64,000 bases of DNA from an uncultured Pelagibacteraceae bacterium (GTDB lineage Bacteria > Pseudomonadota > Alphaproteobacteria > Pelagibacterales > Pelagibacteraceae), in assembly GCA_902636075.1 (NCBI GenBank), contig CACPQM010000003.1, positions 62,001 through 126,000 of the forward strand. Reading direction: 5' to 3'. This document shows, piece by piece, positions 10,231 through 17,113 of the stretch. Each line of letters begins with the position of its first letter. The first letter of the stretch is position 1. The position numbers and the translations under genes were made by a program. Under the pieces are notes generated by a model that saw only the letters and a program-made list of their open reading frames with translations, searched no databases and was not told the origin of the DNA.

Positions 10231-10890
10231 TTACTTTGTAGGATCTGGAACTTTTCTTAAATAAGGCTTAACTGTTTCCCATCCATCTGGATATATTTTT
10301 TTAGCCTCGTCGTCTTTTACAGCAGGAAGAATTACAACATCTTCACCTTTTTTCCAATTAGCTGGAGTAGCAACTCTATGTTTTGCAGTAAGTTGCATTG
10401 AGTCTATGGCTCTCAAAATTTCATGGAAATTTCTACCTGTAGCCATTGGGTAAGTTAAATAAAGACCAATTCTTTTATCTGGTCTTACAACAAAAATAGT
10501 TCTAACAGTCTCATTATCAACTGCTGTTCTTCCCATTGAAGTTGTTCCTGCATCGGCTTCTAACATATTGAAAAGTTTTGCAACTTTTAAATCTTCATCA
10601 GCGATAATAGGATAATCAGGCATCGTTCCAGATACATCTTTGATATCTTCTAACCATTTTTTGTGATCCTCAACTCCATCTACACTTAGTCCGATTACTT
10701 TTACATTTCGCGCATCAAACTCAGCTTTCATTTGTCCTAATGAACCTAATTCTGTAGTACAAACTGGTGTAAAATCTTTTGGGTGAGAAAATAATACGCC
10801 CCAACTATCTCCAAGCCACTCATGAAAAGAAATATCTCCCTCTGTAGTTTTGCATTGAAAATCAGGACACATGCTGTTTATTTTTAACAT
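10231..10890 (-). CDS. 1-Cys peroxiredoxin (Prx6 type)
   Basis: Thiol peroxidase of 219 residues that reduces hydrogen peroxide and alkyl hydroperoxides in the cytoplasm. The peroxidatic cysteine is C44 in FTPVCTTELG, with the conserved Thr two residues before it. There is no C-terminal resolving Cys. The long C-terminal arm (about residues 160-219, GEDVVILPAVKDDEAKK) is typical of the Prx6 group. The reductant is not encoded next to it. It is divergent from the persulfide-dioxygenase-like gene and has a good promoter and a strong AAGGAG ribosome site. Confidence 0.93.
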   Translation of the reverse strand: MLKINSMCPDFQCKTTEGDISFHEWLGDSWGVLFSHPKDFTPVCTTELGSLGQMKAEFDARNVKVIGLSVDGVEDHKKWLEDIKDVSGTMPDYPIIADEDLKVAKLFNMLEADAGTTSMGRTAVDNETVRTIFVVRPDKRIGLYLTYPMATGRNFHEILRAIDSMQLTAKHRVATPANWKKGEDVVILPAVKDDEAKKIYPDGWETVKPYLRKVPDPTK

Positions 10891-10920
10891 TTAGTCTCTC
10901 CTTAGTTATTATTTAGAATA

Positions 10921-10949
10921 ATTATAATGAAGATTGATTTGGTATGCAA
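10921..10949 (-). promoter_or_regulatory. Candidate sigma-70 promoter of the peroxiredoxin gene
   Basis: On the minus strand a perfect TATAAT -10 (10926-10921) lies 17 bases after TTGCAT (10949-10944, three of six -35 matches). The predicted transcript would start near 10914, leaving a leader of about 24 bases with AAGGAG before the ATG at 10890. Confidence 0.55.
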
Positions 10950-10968
10950 ATTTTAATAGTCTTTTAAT

Positions 10969-11661
10969 ATGATATTTAACCAATTGTTTGATGAAAAATC
11001 CTCAACTTATACCTACATTATTTCTAGTGGAAAAGGCAGAGAGGCTTTGATCATAGATCCAGTTATTGAGCATACTGATCAATATATAAGAGTTTTAAAA
11101 GATTTAGATTTAAAACTAGTGAAGGTAATAGACACTCATATTCATGCTGATCATGTGACTGGTCTAAACGAGTTAAATAAAAGAACAAATTGCATTCGTA
11201 TTATGGGTGAAAATTCTAAGTCGGAGGTCATTGATATAAAGTTAAAAGATGAAGAAAATATAAATATCGAAAATATTGAACTTAAAGCTATTTATACTCC
11301 AGGTCATACAGATTGTTCATATAGTTACTTAATGAATGATAGAGTTTTTACAGGAGATACTCTTTTAATAAATGGAACAGGTAGAACTGACTTTCAAAAT
11401 GGTAGCGCCCACGAAGCTTATGACTCATTATTTGGTAAACTTTTAAGGCTTCCAGAAGAAACACTTGTTTATCCTGCTCATGATTATAATGGGAAAAAAA
11501 ATTCAACAATTGGTAACGAAAAAAGCAATAATCCTCGATTACAAGTTAGCTCAAAAGAGGAATATGCTGAAATAATGGATAATCTTAATCTTGCCAATCC
11601 AAAAATGATGGATATCGCAGTACCAGCAAATCTAAAGGGATTAACACTAAAAGAACTCTAA
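10969..11661 (+). CDS. Metallo-beta-lactamase-fold persulfide dioxygenase-like protein
   Basis: 230 residues of the ETHE1 group. Metal ligands are H57, H59, D61 and H62 (THIHADH), H113 (TPGHTD), D130 (FTGDTLL) and H171 (YPAHDYNG). The GTGRTDFQ segment, characteristic of ETHE1-type enzymes rather than glyoxalase II, is present. The expected reaction is oxidation of glutathione persulfide to sulfite with a single iron. There is no rhodanese fusion. A Cys-rich micro-ORF, cysE and cysK lie downstream, so the setting is sulfide and cysteine metabolism. A generic hydroxyacylglutathione hydrolase is less likely. Confidence 0.85.
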   Translation: MIFNQLFDEKSSTYTYIISSGKGREALIIDPVIEHTDQYIRVLKDLDLKLVKVIDTHIHADHVTGLNELNKRTNCIRIMGENSKSEVIDIKLKDEENINIENIELKAIYTPGHTDCSYSYLMNDRVFTGDTLLINGTGRTDFQNGSAHEAYDSLFGKLLRLPEETLVYPAHDYNGKKNSTIGNEKSNNPRLQVSSKEEYAEIMDNLNLANPKMMDIAVPANLKGLTLKEL

Positions 11662-11715
11662 AATCAGCGATATTATTAGTATTGTTTTTAAAAAATATAC
11701 AATTATATAACTCTT

Positions 11716-11826
11716 ATGGTATGCAATAATACACACTGTAAATGTAAGAACTGTTCTTGTGACAGATGCGTTTGTAAAAATTGTGATTGCAAACCATCAT
11801 CAGAAAACTGCTGTTGCAATAAGTAG
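11716..11826 (+). CDS. Cys-rich micropeptide, metallothionein-like
   Basis: A 36-codon ORF with 12 cysteines (residues 3, 8, 10, 13, 15, 18, 20, 23, 25, 32, 33, 34), including five CxC units (for example CKC, CSC, CVC, CDC) and a terminal CCC. Polar and Lys/Asn residues fill the rest, and there is one His at position 7. Such density is typical of metal-thiolate cluster peptides. It does not match the usual bacterial BmtA/SmtA layout that I know. It lies 54 bp after the persulfide-dioxygenase-like gene and 30 bp before cysE, same strand. No clear ribosome site precedes the ATG, and an in-frame stop lies at 11689. Zn or Cu buffering, or sulfur sensing, is inferred. Confidence 0.65.
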   Translation: MVCNNTHCKCKNCSCDRCVCKNCDCKPSSENCCCNK

Positions 11827-11856
11827 TTAAATTTTAATAACTAATCTTAAACAAAC

Positions 11857-12438
11857 ATGAATGATTTTTTAGAGTCGATAGTTAAAAGAGATCCTGCTGC
11901 AAGATCAAAGTTAAGTTTAATACTAACTTATCCTGGTGTTAAAGCTGTATTTTTTCATAGAATTGCAAATTTTTTTTCAATTGCAAAATTTCATCTCGTT
12001 GCAAGAATAATTTCTCAGTTCTCAAGATTTTTAACAGGTATAGAAATCCATCCAAATGCTAAAATTGGAAAAAATCTTTTTATAGATCATGGCATGGGAG
12101 TAGTTATTGGAGAAACATCTGATATTGGAGATAACGTTACCATCTATCACATGGCAACATTAGGTGGAATTGCTCCAAGTATAAATTCAGACAATCAAAG
12201 AAATGTTAAAAGACACCCAACATTAAAAGAAAATGTAGTTGTAGGATCTGGTGCACAAATCCTTGGACCAGTTGTTGTTGGTAAAAATGCAAAAATTGGA
12301 GCCAACGCTGTTGTTACAAAAGATGTTCCAGAAAATGCAGTAATGGTTGGTATTCCTGCAAAAAATGTTGGAACTGCATCTGAAGAATTTAAACCCTATG
12401 GTGTTGCACCGGGGGGTGATACAAAGCTTGATGTATGA
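11857..12438 (+). CDS. cysE: Serine O-acetyltransferase
   Basis: Makes O-acetylserine from serine and acetyl-CoA, the first step of cysteine synthesis. 193 residues, the short EpsC-like form without the long N-terminal domain of E. coli CysE (273 residues). The left-handed beta-helix hexapeptide repeats run from about residue 60 to 175, with the catalytic-type segments [12 protein letters not shown] and [11 protein letters not shown]. The last bases overlap the cysK start (ATGA), so the two enzymes are translationally coupled and probably form the cysteine synthase complex. Confidence 0.93.
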
Positions 12439-13436
12439 AAACTTTACAAAATAATTTTGTCGAAGCAATAGGAAATACTCCTCTATTTAAATTAAAAGCC
12501 GCATCAGAAATTACTGGTTGTAATATTTATGGAAAAGCAGAGTACCTTAATCCAGGTGGCTCTGTAAAAGATAGAGCAGCTTTAGCATTAATAAGAGATG
12601 CTGAGGAAAAAAAATTAATTTCAAAAGGTGGAACAATTGTTGAGGGAACTGCTGGTAATACTGGAATTGGATTATGTCTTTTAGGAAATTCTATTGGTTA
12701 TAAAACTATTATCGTAATGAACGATAATCAAACACAAGAAAAAAAAGATTTATTAAGAAATATTGGAGCTGATTTAAGGCTGGTTCCACCAAAACCTTAT
12801 AAAGATGAAAATAACTTTGTTAAATACGCAGGAAGATTGGCTGATGAATTGAAAAGTAGTAACAATCACGGTGTAGTTTGGGCTAATCAATTTGACAATA
12901 CTGCTAATTCTAAAGGTCATTATGAAACAACTGGGCCAGAAATATGGGAACAGACTGATGGCAAAATTGATGGATTTGTATGTTCGTCTGGTACTGGTGG
13001 TACAATCGCTGGCGTTAGTAGTTTTTTAAAAGAAAAGAATAAAGATATTAAAATATATTTATCAGATCCAACTGGCTCATCTCTTTATAATTACATTGAA
13101 AATGGTGAATTAAAAAGTGAGGGAGGTTCAATTACAGAAGGTATTGGATCTAGTAGAGTTACTGCAAACTTTGCAAAAGCAAATATAGATGGAGCATTTT
13201 CAATAAGTGACCATGAGTCGTTACCCGTTCTATTTGATTTAATTGAAAAAGAAGGTTTAAGTTTAGGTACTAGTTGTGGTGTAAACATTGCTGGAGCAAT
13301 AAGATTGGGTAAACTTTTAGGCCCAGGTAAAACGATCGTAACAATACTTTGTGATAAATCTGATAAATACAACTCAAAGATGTTCAATAAATCTTTTTTA
13401 CAAGAAAAAGGTCTTCCCTATCCTCATTGGATATAA
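12435..13436 (+). CDS. cysK: Cysteine synthase
   Basis: PLP enzyme that makes cysteine from O-acetylserine and sulfide. 333 residues. The PLP lysine is K45 in [11 protein letters not shown], the substrate loop is [10 protein letters not shown], and the phosphate-binding loop reads [11 protein letters not shown]. It starts inside the last codon of cysE (ATGA overlap). The longer C-terminus ([16 protein letters not shown]) resembles the subgroup often annotated as cysteine synthase A in alphaproteobacteria. No sulfate-reduction genes are nearby, so sulfide may come from organic sulfur. Confidence 0.93.
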
Positions 13437-13518
13437 TCACGCATAGCAGCACTGTAATAAATTCATTACATTTCTAACTTAAAATAAAATTTAATATAAA
13501 TAAATCAAAGGAGATTTT

Positions 13519-13893
13519 ATGGACGCAAAAGAAGTAGTTAAAAAAGGATATGAACTTTTTGGGAAAGGAGAAATGGAGGCATTTATGGATATGGTACATG
13601 ATGATATCACTTGGATTTATCCTGGAGATAAACATCCAATGTCAGGAACTCATAAAGGCAAAGAAGCATATATGAAAATAATGATGCAAGTTCCACAACT
13701 TTGGAATAATTTTTCAGTAACTCCAGATATGATGATTAGTGAGGGAAACAAAGTGTTTGTTAAGGCAACTGCAAAGGCAGATGGCATGGATACTATTTTT
13801 GGTCATTACTTTGAAGTAGGCGATGATGGTAAACTGACAATGTTTATTGCGTTTGACGATACATTAAGCATGTTCAATGCAATGAAGAAGTAA
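13519..13893 (+). CDS. NTF2/SnoaL-like protein, first gene of the small-protein operon
   Basis: 124 residues with the SnoaL/ketosteroid-isomerase-like pattern: an N-terminal helix (VVKKGYELFGKGEMEAF), then MVHDDITWIYPGD, and beta strands ending in FIAFDDTLSMF. It is a likely cone-shaped cytoplasmic dimer, function unknown. A strong ribosome site (AAGGAG) precedes the ATG. It heads eleven same-strand small genes up to 17610, the next one only 8 bp downstream. SnoaL-type proteins bind small hydrophobic ligands, but the pocket residues do not tell which. Confidence 0.8.
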   Translation: MDAKEVVKKGYELFGKGEMEAFMDMVHDDITWIYPGDKHPMSGTHKGKEAYMKIMMQVPQLWNNFSVTPDMMISEGNKVFVKATAKADGMDTIFGHYFEVGDDGKLTMFIAFDDTLSMFNAMKK

Positions 13894-13901
13894 GGAACAG
13901 A

Positions 13902-14228
13902 ATGTCAATTTTAGAAAAACTAAACAAAGCAATCATGGAAAAAGATGGTGCAGCAGCTGGTGAGCTGGTGCACGATGACTACAAAATGTTTTCTCATCTA
14001 AAAGGTGAATATGTACACATGGGTAAAGCAGGCATGGTCGAAGCCGTGAGTAAAGGTATGATGAGTCCTGCAAAATACAGGATCCTTTTTGAAAATGATG
14101 AAATTGGTTTTGATCATTCATATGTTACTTATCAAGATGGAAATACAGAAGCCTTAATGTGTTGTTGGAAATTTAAAGATGGTAAAATCATTGAATTAGA
14201 AACCGGGGCAACAAAAATACCCAAATAA
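13902..14228 (+). CDS. NTF2/SnoaL-like small protein, paralogue A
   Basis: 108 residues, NTF2-like. It shares MSILEK, HDD, FENDEIG, DGNTEA and LETGAT..PK with the gene at 16793-17113 and is clearly its paralogue. The two bracket the middle of the operon. It has a ribosome site (GGAACAG) 8 bp after the previous gene. Function unknown; probably a cytoplasmic homodimer or heterodimer, given two related copies in one transcription unit. Confidence 0.8.
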   Translation: MSILEKLNKAIMEKDGAAAGELVHDDYKMFSHLKGEYVHMGKAGMVEAVSKGMMSPAKYRILFENDEIGFDHSYVTYQDGNTEALMCCWKFKDGKIIELETGATKIPK

Positions 14229-14252
14229 CTATGAACTAATAAAGGAGTTAAT

Positions 14253-14603
14253 GTGGCTAGTATAGAAGTTAAAACTTTTGATAAAGCAGACGAAATAGTT
14301 GATAAATTTAATAATGCTAAAATTGAAGCAGTTAAGGTAGGTGGTCAAAGAGTAGTAAGATTGCATTTAAAACCAGGATGGAAATGGTCTACAGATGTTA
14401 AGCCACATATTGGAACTGATAGTTGTCAGGCAAACCATATTGGAATTATCACAAAAGGTTCTGTATGTGCTAAACACGATGATGGAACAGAGGTTACGTA
14501 TAAAGCAGGAGACTCTTACTCTGTAACACCTGGACATGACGCTTGGGTAATTGGCAACGAACCTGTTGAAGCATTTGAATTTGCTGGGGTTTGGGGGGAA
14601 TAA
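14253..14603 (+). CDS. Small cupin protein (GTG start)
   Basis: 116 residues, single cupin domain. RLHLKPGWKWS, NHIGIITKGSVCAKHDDGTE and YSVTPGHDAWVIGNEPVEAFEF follow the two cupin motifs; candidate metal ligands are the His in NHIG and the His in PGHDAW. The GTG at 14253 has a perfect AAAGGAG spaced 5 bp upstream. An ATG two bases earlier is in another frame and stops after four codons. Cupins may be metal-dependent enzymes or ligand sensors; which applies cannot be told. Confidence 0.82.
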   Translation: MASIEVKTFDKADEIVDKFNNAKIEAVKVGGQRVVRLHLKPGWKWSTDVKPHIGTDSCQANHIGIITKGSVCAKHDDGTEVTYKAGDSYSVTPGHDAWVIGNEPVEAFEFAGVWGE

Positions 14604-14604
14604 A

Positions 14605-14874
14605 ATGGTAAAAATGGTTGGTAACTTTGAAGTAAAAGACTGGACTCACTGGAAAAAATTGTTTGATGAACATTCTGGCCCAAGAGAAGCAGCAGGTATT
14701 AAAACTATTTACGTAGGTAATGAAATAGAAAATCCAAATAAAGTACATATTGTGATGGAAACACCAGCAGCAGACACTATGCAAAAATTTATGCAGAATC
14801 CAGAGAATGCTAAGGTAATTGCGGAATCTGGCCATAAACAAGAGACAACAGTAATGAGTGTTTGTTCAGATTAA
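14605..14874 (+). CDS. DUF3764-like small alpha/beta-barrel protein
   Basis: 89 residues from the ATG at 14605, one base after the cupin stop; the open frame extends upstream only into the cupin gene. The segment AGIKTIYVGNEIENPNKVHI and the end VIAESGHKQETTVMSV match what I recall of DUF3764-type proteins, which have a ferredoxin-like dimeric alpha/beta barrel. No catalytic residue is recognisable. It probably dimerises with itself or with the similar small proteins encoded downstream. Confidence 0.7.
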   Translation: MVKMVGNFEVKDWTHWKKLFDEHSGPREAAGIKTIYVGNEIENPNKVHIVMETPAADTMQKFMQNPENAKVIAESGHKQETTVMSVCSD

Positions 14875-14893
14875 AAATAATAACAGAAAGGTA

Positions 14894-15379
14894 ATGGTGA
14901 AAAAAATATATTTAATTATGATGTTTATAATATTTACAACATCAAGTTTTGCAGACGGCCATAAAGGAAAAATTGATCTTAAAGGTTTTATTGTTGGAGA
15001 AAACAAATTTCTTACTGATAACGAGGGTAACTTTTTAACTTTTACTTACGATGGAGTTGGAGGATTAATGGCAGTCGAGGGTACAACATTCATGGATAAT
15101 GCATCACAATATTGTCTTGGCGCAGGCACAATCCCAGGAAAGGGATTTGAAATGGGACACTGTAAAATAAATCTAATGGATGGGGATGCTGTTTTTACAT
15201 ACTACGAAATTCCACTTGGAGACTCAATGAATGGTACATTTAAATGTTTAGGGGGAACAGGAAAATATAAAGGAATAGAATGTAGTGGCTCAACAGGGTA
15301 CACACCAATTAACTCAGCCCAAGAAAATAAATTTGCCTCTTCAATTTATTTCATGGGTGAATATGCATTAATGAAATGA
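14894..15379 (+). CDS. Exported small protein, possible allene-oxide-cyclase-like barrel
   Basis: 161 residues from the ATG at 14894 (AAAGG just upstream). The signal peptide ends TSSFA, so the mature protein should begin Asp-Gly-His, an N-terminal copper-binding (ATCUN) pattern. The mature part is beta-rich with four Cys (YCLG, GHCK, FKCLGG, IECSG), enough for two disulfides. GGTGKYKGIECSGS resembles the glycine-rich turn of allene-oxide-cyclase/dirigent-like barrels; that comparison is from memory and tentative. Periplasmic, function unknown. Confidence 0.72.
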   Translation: MVKKIYLIMMFIIFTTSSFADGHKGKIDLKGFIVGENKFLTDNEGNFLTFTYDGVGGLMAVEGTTFMDNASQYCLGAGTIPGKGFEMGHCKINLMDGDAVFTYYEIPLGDSMNGTFKCLGGTGKYKGIECSGSTGYTPINSAQENKFASSIYFMGEYALMK

Positions 15380-15402
15380 TAAATTTAAAGAAAGGTAAAT
15401 AA

Positions 15403-15831
15403 ATGAAAAAAATTTTTTTAATTCTAATATTAAGTCTGTTCACAACAAACTCTTTTGCTGATGGTCATGCAAATGCAAATGGTTTTTCAATAACTCTTAA
15501 AGTTCCTATGGCCGATACAGCAAAAGTTGAGGAAATGCTTATGAAACATGCAAAATGGATGAAAGAAACACATCCATTAACAGGTGAAAAAAAACTAAAT
15601 TCATATTCGATCATGAAAGGTCCTGAGTGGAAAAATCCTGGTGACCCATCACAAGGGACAACTGGTAATATTTTCTATGTATTAAATGAATTTTATGAAA
15701 ATCCTGCTGGATTTGCAAATCATCAACAACTTGGTTCACAATGGTCTGAAATACAAGAATTTCAGACGATTTTATTCACATATCAAGTTGGATATGCTTT
15801 TCCTGGAACAACCATTGAAACAATTGAATAA
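15403..15831 (+). CDS. Exported small protein, DGH mature N-terminus
   Basis: 142 residues. The signal peptide ends TNSFA, again giving a predicted mature Asp-Gly-His start. The body (FSITLKVPMADTAKVEEMLM, then helices and FYVLNEFYENPAGFANHQ) looks like an antibiotic-biosynthesis-monooxygenase or ferredoxin-like fold moved to the periplasm. No Cys in the mature part. It follows the other exported protein by 23 bp, with its own AAAGG ribosome site. Function unknown. Confidence 0.7.
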   Translation: MKKIFLILILSLFTTNSFADGHANANGFSITLKVPMADTAKVEEMLMKHAKWMKETHPLTGEKKLNSYSIMKGPEWKNPGDPSQGTTGNIFYVLNEFYENPAGFANHQQLGSQWSEIQEFQTILFTYQVGYAFPGTTIETIE

Positions 15832-15876
15832 TCATTTAATTGAATTAAAATATTAAACAAAAAAAAGGAGAAAAAT

Positions 15877-16167
15877 ATGGAAAAAGAAGTGTTAGTAATC
15901 GTAGATTTGAAAGAAGGAAAGCTTGAAAAATTTATGGGATGGATGCAATCAGATGAAGGTATGAGTGTGAGAAAATCTGCAGCTCATCCAGAAAAAACTA
16001 TAGGAGCAGTAAAGCCAGATAAAAGTGGCGTAATGTTTAAGGTATTTGTTCATAATATGGAAAAAATGAAAGAACTAATATCTGGTACACATCCAGTTGG
16101 AAAGGAAATTTACGATGAATGTGTTATCAAAATGACTGCTTGGGATTTAACAAAAGTTGAAATGTAA
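15877..16167 (+). CDS. Small cytoplasmic protein, likely alpha/beta-barrel fold
   Basis: 96 residues, no signal peptide, strong AAGGAG upstream. The order strand (EVLVIVDLKEG), helix (LEKFMGWMQSDEGM), strand (GAVKPDKSGVMFKVFV), helix (MEKMKELISGT) mirrors the DUF3764-like protein at 14605, so a ferredoxin-like dimer is likely. I do not recognise a named family. One base separates its stop from the next start. Confidence 0.65.
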   Translation: MEKEVLVIVDLKEGKLEKFMGWMQSDEGMSVRKSAAHPEKTIGAVKPDKSGVMFKVFVHNMEKMKELISGTHPVGKEIYDECVIKMTAWDLTKVEM

Positions 16168-16168
16168 T

Positions 16169-16492
16169 ATGGCAAGATTTTATTTGATTGGCAAAATAAG
16201 TGCAGAGTTAATGAAAAGAATGCAAAATGATCCATCTGCTGATAGATATGCATCGACTAAGAAAGTTACGGAGGCAGCTGGTTTAAAATTGATCAGCTAT
16301 GAATGGGTAAGAGGTAGATTTGATGTTATCTCATGTGTAGAAGGAGATTATGAACAAGCACTTTCCTTAAAGATTGCATTCAAAAATTCAGGTCTTATGG
16401 ATGATTTGATGGTACATGAAGTTATTGACTACAATAAAGCCTTTCAAAATGCTGCAGATGCCACAAAGTCAGTTATTAAACCAGGAGAATAA
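16169..16492 (+). CDS. GYD-domain-like protein
   Basis: 107 residues from the ATG at 16169, directly after the previous stop; a TTG four codons earlier in frame is less likely. MARFYLIGKIS, then KVTEAAGLKLISYEWVRGRF and DVISCVEGDYEQALSLKIAF follow the GYD-domain pattern, with RGRFDV at the place of the Gly-Tyr-Asp signature. GYD proteins have a dimeric alpha/beta barrel and no known enzyme activity. Part of the same operon. Confidence 0.72.
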   Translation: MARFYLIGKISAELMKRMQNDPSADRYASTKKVTEAAGLKLISYEWVRGRFDVISCVEGDYEQALSLKIAFKNSGLMDDLMVHEVIDYNKAFQNAADATKSVIKPGE

Positions 16493-16494
16493 TT

Positions 16495-16782
16495 ATGAGT
16501 GGTTATGCGATATTTAACCTTAATGTAAACAATCCTGAAAATTATAAGGAATACATAGACAAAGTTAAACCCACTGCAGAAAAATTTGGTGGGGAGTATC
16601 TTGTAAGAGGTGGTAACAGCGAGACTATTGAAGGGTCATGGCAGCATCCAAGGACAGTTGTGATAAAATTTCCAAGTTACGAGAAAGCAAAGGAATGGTA
16701 TAATTCTGAAGAATATAAACCAATAAAACAAATTCGATTAGATAACGCAGATACTAATGGAATGATAATTGAAGGAGTATAA
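16495..16782 (+). CDS. DUF1330 family protein
   Basis: 95 residues. The DUF1330 pattern is clear: GYAIFNLNVNNPENYKEYID, then KFGGEYLVRGG, then VVIKFPSYEKAKEWYNSEEY and a short C-terminal strand. The fold is a dimeric alpha/beta barrel; the biochemical role of the family is not established. It starts 2 bp after the GYD-like gene, so expression is coupled. Confidence 0.88.
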   Translation: MSGYAIFNLNVNNPENYKEYIDKVKPTAEKFGGEYLVRGGNSETIEGSWQHPRTVVIKFPSYEKAKEWYNSEEYKPIKQIRLDNADTNGMIIEGV

Positions 16783-16792
16783 AGGAGATAAA

Positions 16793-17113
16793 ATGTCAAT
16801 ATTAGAAAAATATAGTGCTGCATTAAAAAATAAAGATGAAGCAGCTATGAATGAACTTTTGCATGACGATTTCAAATTTACAATGCATAAATCAGGAAAT
16901 ACTTTAGGTAAATCTGAGGTGATCAAATGGGCGATGAGCGGTGATATTAATCAAAGAGATACACGAGTTGTATATGAAAATGATGAAGTTGGTGTACACC
17001 ACGCATTTGTAACATTTGATGACGGAAATACAGAAGCAGTAATGGCAGTCTACAAATATGATAATGGAAAAATCATGAGTTTAGAGACTGGCGCAACACC
17101 TATGCCTAAATAA
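16793..17113 (+). CDS. NTF2/SnoaL-like small protein, paralogue B
   Basis: 106 residues from the ATG at 16793, preceded by AAAGGAG. It is a clear paralogue of 13902-14228: both begin MSILEK and share HDD, YENDEVG or FENDEIG, DGNTEA and LETGAT..PK. The substitutions in the middle (CCW to AVY) suggest different pockets. Its stop overlaps the cupredoxin start by one base. Function unknown. Confidence 0.8.
   Translation: MSILEKYSAALKNKDEAAMNELLHDDFKFTMHKSGNTLGKSEVIKWAMSGDINQRDTRVVYENDEVGVHHAFVTFDDGNTEAVMAVYKYDNGKIMSLETGATPMPK

Follow-up and report, generated by a model that had tools for sequence, protein, structure and literature searches.

A conserved cysteine-rich peptide, probably metallothionein-like, encoded directly upstream of cysE in Pelagibacteraceae

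Between a gene for a probable persulfide dioxygenase and the cysteine-synthesis genes of an uncultured Pelagibacteraceae bacterium lies a short plus-strand open reading frame (ORF) encoding a metallothionein-like peptide of 36 residues, 12 of them cysteine. The window, that is, the whole 64,000-nucleotide stretch of DNA that was analysed, comes from a genome of 1.24 Mb in 29 contigs (86% complete), and the ORF occupies its positions 11716-11826, stop codon included. The encoded peptide is MVCNNTHCKCKNCSCDRCVCKNCDCKPSSENCCCNK, and the intact ATG-to-TAG frame of 36 codons with 12 Cys claimed in an earlier reading of the sequence alone (the sequence-only reading) was confirmed. In the window's subtype of the peptide, the stretch from C8 to C25 repeats CxCxx exactly, and a CCC stands apart after it. 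At 33% Cys, the peptide stands at the top of the 184 ATG-initiated ORFs of 25-80 residues in the window, the next reaching 27%, and a binomial estimate at the base composition of the window (31% GC) puts the chance of 12 or more Cys among 35 random sense codons at 1.7e-10, in agreement with the claim that so Cys-rich a frame is unlikely in AT-rich DNA.

Upstream on the plus strand, at 10969-11661, lies an ETHE1-like gene, probably a persulfide dioxygenase of the metallo-beta-lactamase fold, whose product has its best PDB sequence match in 4ysb (E 7e-70) and also matches mitochondrial ETHE1 (4chl, E 1e-51), with no NCBIfam model over its cut-off among the 25 matches listed. Downstream, a plus-strand spacer of 30 nt (11827-11856), without a plus-strand terminator or excess RNA structure, leads from the peptide stop to the ATG of cysE (cysE/epsC, serine O-acetyltransferase; 11857-12438, plus strand; NF041874 E 3e-67 and TIGR01172 E 9e-64, both over cut-off), which overlaps by 4 nt with cysK (cysteine synthase A; 12435-13436, plus strand; NF007989, 517 bits against a cut-off of 387). 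The PDB matches and NCBIfam models bear out the neighbours proposed in the sequence-only reading, namely a persulfide-dioxygenase-like gene, cysE and cysK. With a peroxiredoxin gene, these make up the surroundings of the peptide in the window, all of them sulfur and redox genes, with no metalloregulator among them.

A conserved promoter-like element sits at leaderless distance from the ATG of the peptide, with a -35-like TTGTTT (11682-11687, plus strand) followed after 16 nt by a -10-like TATATA (11704-11709, plus strand) that ends 6 nt before the start codon. The TTG falls at -34 in 17 of 21 diverse upstream regions and at -37 to -35 in the remaining four; each of the columns -12 to -8 (TATAT) is kept in 18-20 of the 21. 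A generic sigma-70 scan returned 9 sites, against 10.1 in shuffles, and did not report the TTGTTT/TATATA pair, so the case for the pair is one of cross-species conservation. None of the 83 upstream regions contains a Shine-Dalgarno-like 4-mer at -20 to -4. Because the -35/-10 pair lies so near the ATG and no Shine-Dalgarno sequence accompanies it, a leaderless mRNA is predicted, transcribed from about the ATG and running into cysE-cysK. TATATA occurs within the 20 nt that precede the cysE ATG in 12 of 20 peptide-less dioxygenase-cysE loci (several of them near-copies of each other), and within the last 25 nt in 0 of 21 peptide loci. The simplest reading is that the peptide ORF, placed between promoter and cysE, forms the first cistron of the cysE-cysK unit.

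The family comprises 83 distinct coding sequences, free of frameshifts, that encode 36-39 residues with 10-12 Cys and follow the consensus MxCxNxxCxCxNCxxDxCxC-(0 or 3)-xxCxCxPxxxxCCC. Two main subtypes can be told apart, one of 36 residues, to which the window's peptide belongs, and one of 37-39 residues; the terminal CCC is present in 82 of the 83 sequences, and column 7 holds H in 38, K in 44 and E in one, with no other conserved His. The dN/dS check on homologues proposed in the sequence-only reading, run on these 83 sequences with substitutions counted along a minimum spanning tree of 82 edges (an approximate method), gave an omega of 0.226 for the whole ORF, indicating purifying selection. 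At the Cys columns, 93 synonymous changes stand against 7 non-synonymous ones (omega 0.007), compared with 81% non-synonymous changes in a neutral simulation. The non-Cys codons have an omega of 0.39 (0.30 on short edges), and 65% of their changes are non-synonymous versus a neutral 72-81%. Among the non-Cys residues, FILMVWY account for 8.6% against 45.8% expected from random codons, and FWYL for 2.0% against 26.7%. Judged from the non-Cys omega, the depletion of FILMVWY and the pattern at the Cys columns, selection appears to act on the peptide product, beyond its Cys codons.

Frameshifts, or a Cys pattern not conserved in close relatives, had been named at the outset as findings that would speak against the peptide; relatives show neither, save for two shortened copies. 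These peptides, of 19 residues in one genome (G048, locus L229) and 21 in the other (G209, locus L219), have 5-6 Cys and result from in-frame internal shortenings that leave the N-terminus and the terminal CCC in place. The two shortenings are independent, since they fall in separate parts of the CysE tree and strongly supported branches force two changes. A further genome (G025) has a longer, 44-residue form with extra CxC units. The full form needs 8 changes on this tree, a quick one with 68 of 132 inner branches below 80% support, against a shuffled mean of 44; its distribution is consistent with an old peptide gene and several losses, and loss seems to have been repeated.

At E <= 10, a single-sequence search gave matches in 20 of 150 relatives, a count that includes the genome of the window itself; one of these matches (G144) was rejected as chance, no such ORF being present at its locus. 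A profile of 16 rows matched 81 of 399 genus genomes at E <= 1 and 79 of 399 at E <= 4e-8, roughly one in five of the genus genomes sampled having the peptide; the figure of 79 is a lower bound, because the profile missed the 44-residue form and both short forms, and many of the genus genomes are incomplete. At the level of the order, the profile matched 36 of 297 genomes, including one of a second genus of Pelagibacteraceae (G595), and a weak partial match in another family of the order (G104, E 0.04) was discarded. Weak matches in G206 and G431, together with second matches in G059, G264, G390 and G424, were excluded before counting.

Scanning of the genome_contigs collection with one N-terminal pattern, which divergent relatives could escape, found 121 matching stretches and 74 confirmed loci, every one titled Pelagibacteraceae or Pelagibacterales. 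The class-wide profile search of 337 genomes matched six, namely the own genome and five weak partial cases (E 0.025-0.098) with no family-like ORF at those loci; two of these loci (L137, L138) do contain frames with Cys, of a make-up unlike the family. Phylum-wide, three of 150 genomes matched, again the own genome and two weak cases (E 0.05 and 0.06). None of 78 pattern matches in viral contigs was confirmed, and tblastn searches of phages and plasmids found no family member. Within the searches made, the family thus appears confined to Pelagibacteraceae.

As to genomic setting, this conserved coding ORF, whose Cys spacing is conserved too, stands directly 5' of cysE in every peptide locus examined, with 25-38 nt from peptide stop to cysE start in 114 of 114 loci (L021-L134); these loci are not independent genomes, because the collections overlap (9 of 16 compared loci of one set have an identical stretch in the other). 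The dioxygenase-like gene lies upstream of the peptide in 111 of the 114, and cysK is likewise present in 111. Three loci (L117, L126 and L057, the last from the second genus by its handle) have no upstream dioxygenase and keep the peptide-cysE pair. A 125-residue ORF follows cysE in these three, with no cysK there; in L117 (4716-5090) it is an MsrB-type methionine sulfoxide reductase over the TIGR00357 cut-off, and L057 and L126 have an ORF of the same length.

All 79 strong-match genomes are among the 134 listed with a dioxygenase of at least 76% identity. The remaining 55 listed genomes are without a profile match; 31 of them were inspected and yielded one long form, two short forms and 28 cases of none, the other 24 not having been inspected. 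Across 70 cysE loci, the peptide was found only where the dioxygenase adjoins cysE (one locus, L208, is without upstream sequence), and peptide-less dioxygenase-cysE loci have a clean gap of 21-48 nt. Eight genomes with the dioxygenase away from cysE have no peptide next to it. The tie of the peptide is therefore to cysE, since these eight dioxygenase-only loci are peptide-less and the three peptide-cysE loci above are dioxygenase-less. The interpretation offered in the sequence-only reading stands in part: a conserved coding ORF beside sulfide-oxidation-type and cysteine-synthesis genes is upheld, and the promoter-like element and the leader-peptide layout are matters on which it was silent.

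The best reading of these data, with a probability of about 0.6, is that of a metallothionein-like peptide, a putative metal-thiolate buffer co-expressed with cysteine synthesis, representing a new metallothionein-like family of Pelagibacteraceae. The peptide most likely works like a metallothionein, and its binding of metal or sulfane sulfur is plausible; it has the traits of the class in being very small and about 30% Cys, with CxC/CxxC motifs and few aromatics. Fungal Cu-metallothioneins such as yeast CUP1 likewise have about 12 Cys in CxC/CxxC units and few aromatics, with a different size and order. Neither Pfam nor NCBIfam gave a match for the window peptide, a PDB profile search returned one chance match only (E 2.7), and the AlphaFold2 model, with a pLDDT of 67.5 and a pTM of 0.30, is uninformative. 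The 5-6 Cys of the two shortened forms are too few for a full metal cluster, which counts against the metallothionein reading, and a pure form of that reading leaves these CCC-ending peptides unexplained. The 44-residue form with its added CxC units supports the reading, as does the persistence of the peptide before cysE in loci with another upstream layout; its patchy occurrence and apparent repeated loss, and surroundings of sulfur and redox genes without a metalloregulator, speak against it.

In the proposed mechanism, RNA polymerase would start at or beside the ATG of the peptide ORF, and the resulting leaderless mRNA would carry peptide-cysE(-cysK). The peptide, of about 4 kDa, would fold around Zn(II), Cd(II) or Cu(I) through the thiolates of its CxC, CxxC and CCC units; if known metallothioneins are a guide, its 11-12 Cys would accommodate three to four divalent ions, or a larger number of Cu(I). 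CysE and CysK, made from the same message, would supply the cysteine that the peptide consumes.

Another comparison is with the SmtA/BmtA metallothioneins (PF02069), which share with the peptide small size, Cys richness and CxCxxCxC units, and which have conserved His ligands within the metal cluster. By profile, the peptide is outside that family: at E <= 10, 0 of 16 family members match PF02069 or any other Pfam model, whereas an SmtA control matches PF02069 at 1.5e-20, a result that accords with the earlier remark that the spacing is unlike SmtA/BmtA. BLASTP of the peptide against SmtA gave a best E of 0.15 and aligned only short Cys motifs such as CxCxxCxC. Unlike SmtA/BmtA, the peptide has an unrelated spacing, a terminal CCC and a single His that is not conserved in the family, and thus no conserved His ligand; one study describes Cys9His clusters in the Pseudomonas metallothionein (PMC7387436). 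Unlike cyanobacterial SmtA, the peptide has no SmtB-type regulator beside it in the window, and the same study reports such a regulator to be lacking next to the Pseudomonas metallothionein (PMC7387436).

Searches for metal exporters bear on what such a buffer might do. Heavy-metal P1B-ATPases (TIGR01525) were found in 0 of 74 genus genomes, 20 of which have a completeness of 90% or more, while all 14 control genomes matched, 13 of them over the cut-off; CDF exporters (PF01545) were found in 0 of 36 genus genomes, with 14 of 14 controls matching. The HMA model (PF00403) was over its cut-off in one of 36 genus genomes and gave a weak match in another, neither of which has a peptide match (controls, 13 of 14). 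These searches covered two exporter types, P1B-ATPase and CDF, among several that also include RND. With neither a P1B-ATPase nor a CDF exporter found, the buffer could be a main line of intracellular soft-metal handling. Known peptides are absent from 33 of the 74 genomes in the TIGR01525 search; because exporters are missing with and without the peptide, their absence offers a motive rather than a correlation, and does not predict peptide presence.

Metal uptake in SAR11 is reported to be strongly minimised (PMC4771312). An intracellular thiolate buffer would make sense in that setting. SAR11 bacteria rank with the most abundant cells of the ocean, and if they are also without soft-metal efflux, as the two exporter searches suggest, the question arises how they deal with copper, zinc and cadmium. 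A thiolate peptide of 36 residues, linked to cysteine synthesis, would answer it directly and in a testable way. Such a peptide would also represent a metallothionein-like family invisible to the SmtA profile and short enough to escape ordinary length cut-offs. Literature on SAR11 metallothioneins or Cys-rich peptides, drawn mostly from outside the subscription literature, included among the matches listed none naming this peptide in its title or the start of its abstract.

The metallothionein reading has to be weighed against an unlikely but serious alternative, namely that the ORF is a cysteine-responsive leader peptide on which a shortage of charged Cys-tRNA slows ribosomes at the Cys codons, particularly CCC, and which thereby controls cysE-cysK. 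Leaderless polycysteine ORFs of this kind in mycobacteria are reportedly cysteine-responsive, as Canestrari et al. are said to have described in 2020; in a polycysteine attenuator, mRNA structure hides the downstream start unless a ribosome stalls. The mycobacterial ORFs serve as precedent by way of a review (PMC9031893). The peptide ORF resembles them in being short, with a predicted leaderless start, with Cys codons in an unbroken row and with cysteine genes immediately downstream; unlike them, it has twelve spaced Cys and conserved hydrophilic non-Cys residues under purifying selection. The position immediately before cysE in all 114 loci, the leaderless promoter geometry, the CCC end in 82 of 83 coding sequences and the two independent shortenings that keep both N-terminus and CCC all speak for this alternative, and such a layout makes the locus a place to test whether peptides sense cysteine in bacteria other than mycobacteria.

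Features of the RNA speak against such a device. Attenuation structure was not predicted at the peptide-cysE junction: in a folding set of 65 of 66 proteins (L059 being left out because its cysE start was unrecognised), the stretch from the peptide end to cysE showed no excess structure (mean z -0.03, sd 1.06; 3 of 65 under -2), and the predicted accessibility of the cysE start, 0.56 and 0.55, was unaltered on removing the mRNA up to a ribosome at the last Cys codon. A trp-type transcription attenuator has an intrinsic terminator between leader and first gene, whereas none lies between peptide and cysE; the sole terminator-like site in 10850-12600 is on the minus strand inside cysE. Rfam gave no match above threshold on 10800-13500, and one far below it. 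Moreover, a pure sensor would not need the constrained, hydrophilic non-Cys codons. In Ca. P. ubique, a strain that may or may not carry the peptide, sulfur limitation brought no upregulation of cysK or cysE, according to one study (PMC5069961). Since excess structure, altered accessibility, a terminator and an Rfam match were all missing, a plain cysteine attenuator is not favoured; it stays in play, alone or as a second role, on account of the shortened forms that still end in CCC and of the strict association with cysE.

A doubtful reading is that of a sulfane-sulfur or thiol carrier, in which the Cys residues would accept persulfide sulfur from sulfide:quinone reductase (SQR) and pass it to the dioxygenase, or would store cysteine sulfur in a bacterium that requires reduced sulfur. 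It draws on the dioxygenase-like gene that immediately precedes the peptide in 111 of 114 loci, and on the inclusion of all 79 strong-match genomes among the 134 with that dioxygenase. Of the 70 named loci that allowed a judgement, 37 also have a co-oriented gene for a mitochondrial-type SQR 38-40 nt ahead of the dioxygenase, among them that of L061 (1977-3215), whose product has a PDB sequence match at E 1.5e-98 and scores below the cut-off of the NCBIfam SQR model. Yet 33 of the 70 loci have no SQR there, no peptide adjoins the dioxygenase in the eight genomes where it lies apart from cysE, and three loci have peptide and cysE without the dioxygenase. It may also be argued that a persulfide acceptor has no obvious need for strict CxC/CxxC spacing.

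Quite improbable, too, is that one leaderless ORF does both jobs, its product acting as a putative metal or sulfur buffer, in a cell where the searches detected no soft-metal exporter, and the translation of its 11-12 Cys codons as a cysteine gauge that sets the level of CysE and CysK; if so, cysteine supply would be matched to thiolate demand on the same mRNA. Finally, an ORF this short, without a database match or a Shine-Dalgarno sequence, might be taken for chance or non-coding DNA, a vanishingly small prospect that the substitution pattern in the alignment already contradicts (omega 0.226 overall and 0.007 at Cys columns), with start, frame and promoter-like element kept over 83 distinct coding sequences.

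Several minor observations accompany the locus. TGC makes up 38% of the Cys codons in the family versus 22% in window ORFs, an excess that, in related sequences, is only suggestive, perhaps of selection for quicker decoding of Cys. The gene that precedes the dioxygenase-like gene in the window is that of the peroxiredoxin, where 37 of the 70 named loci have SQR. Downstream of cysK, a run of about ten small genes (window 13519-17113) includes some that match SnoaL_2/DUF4440, GYD, cupin or DUF1330, several of them below Pfam cut-offs, and the gene content of this region varies among relatives.
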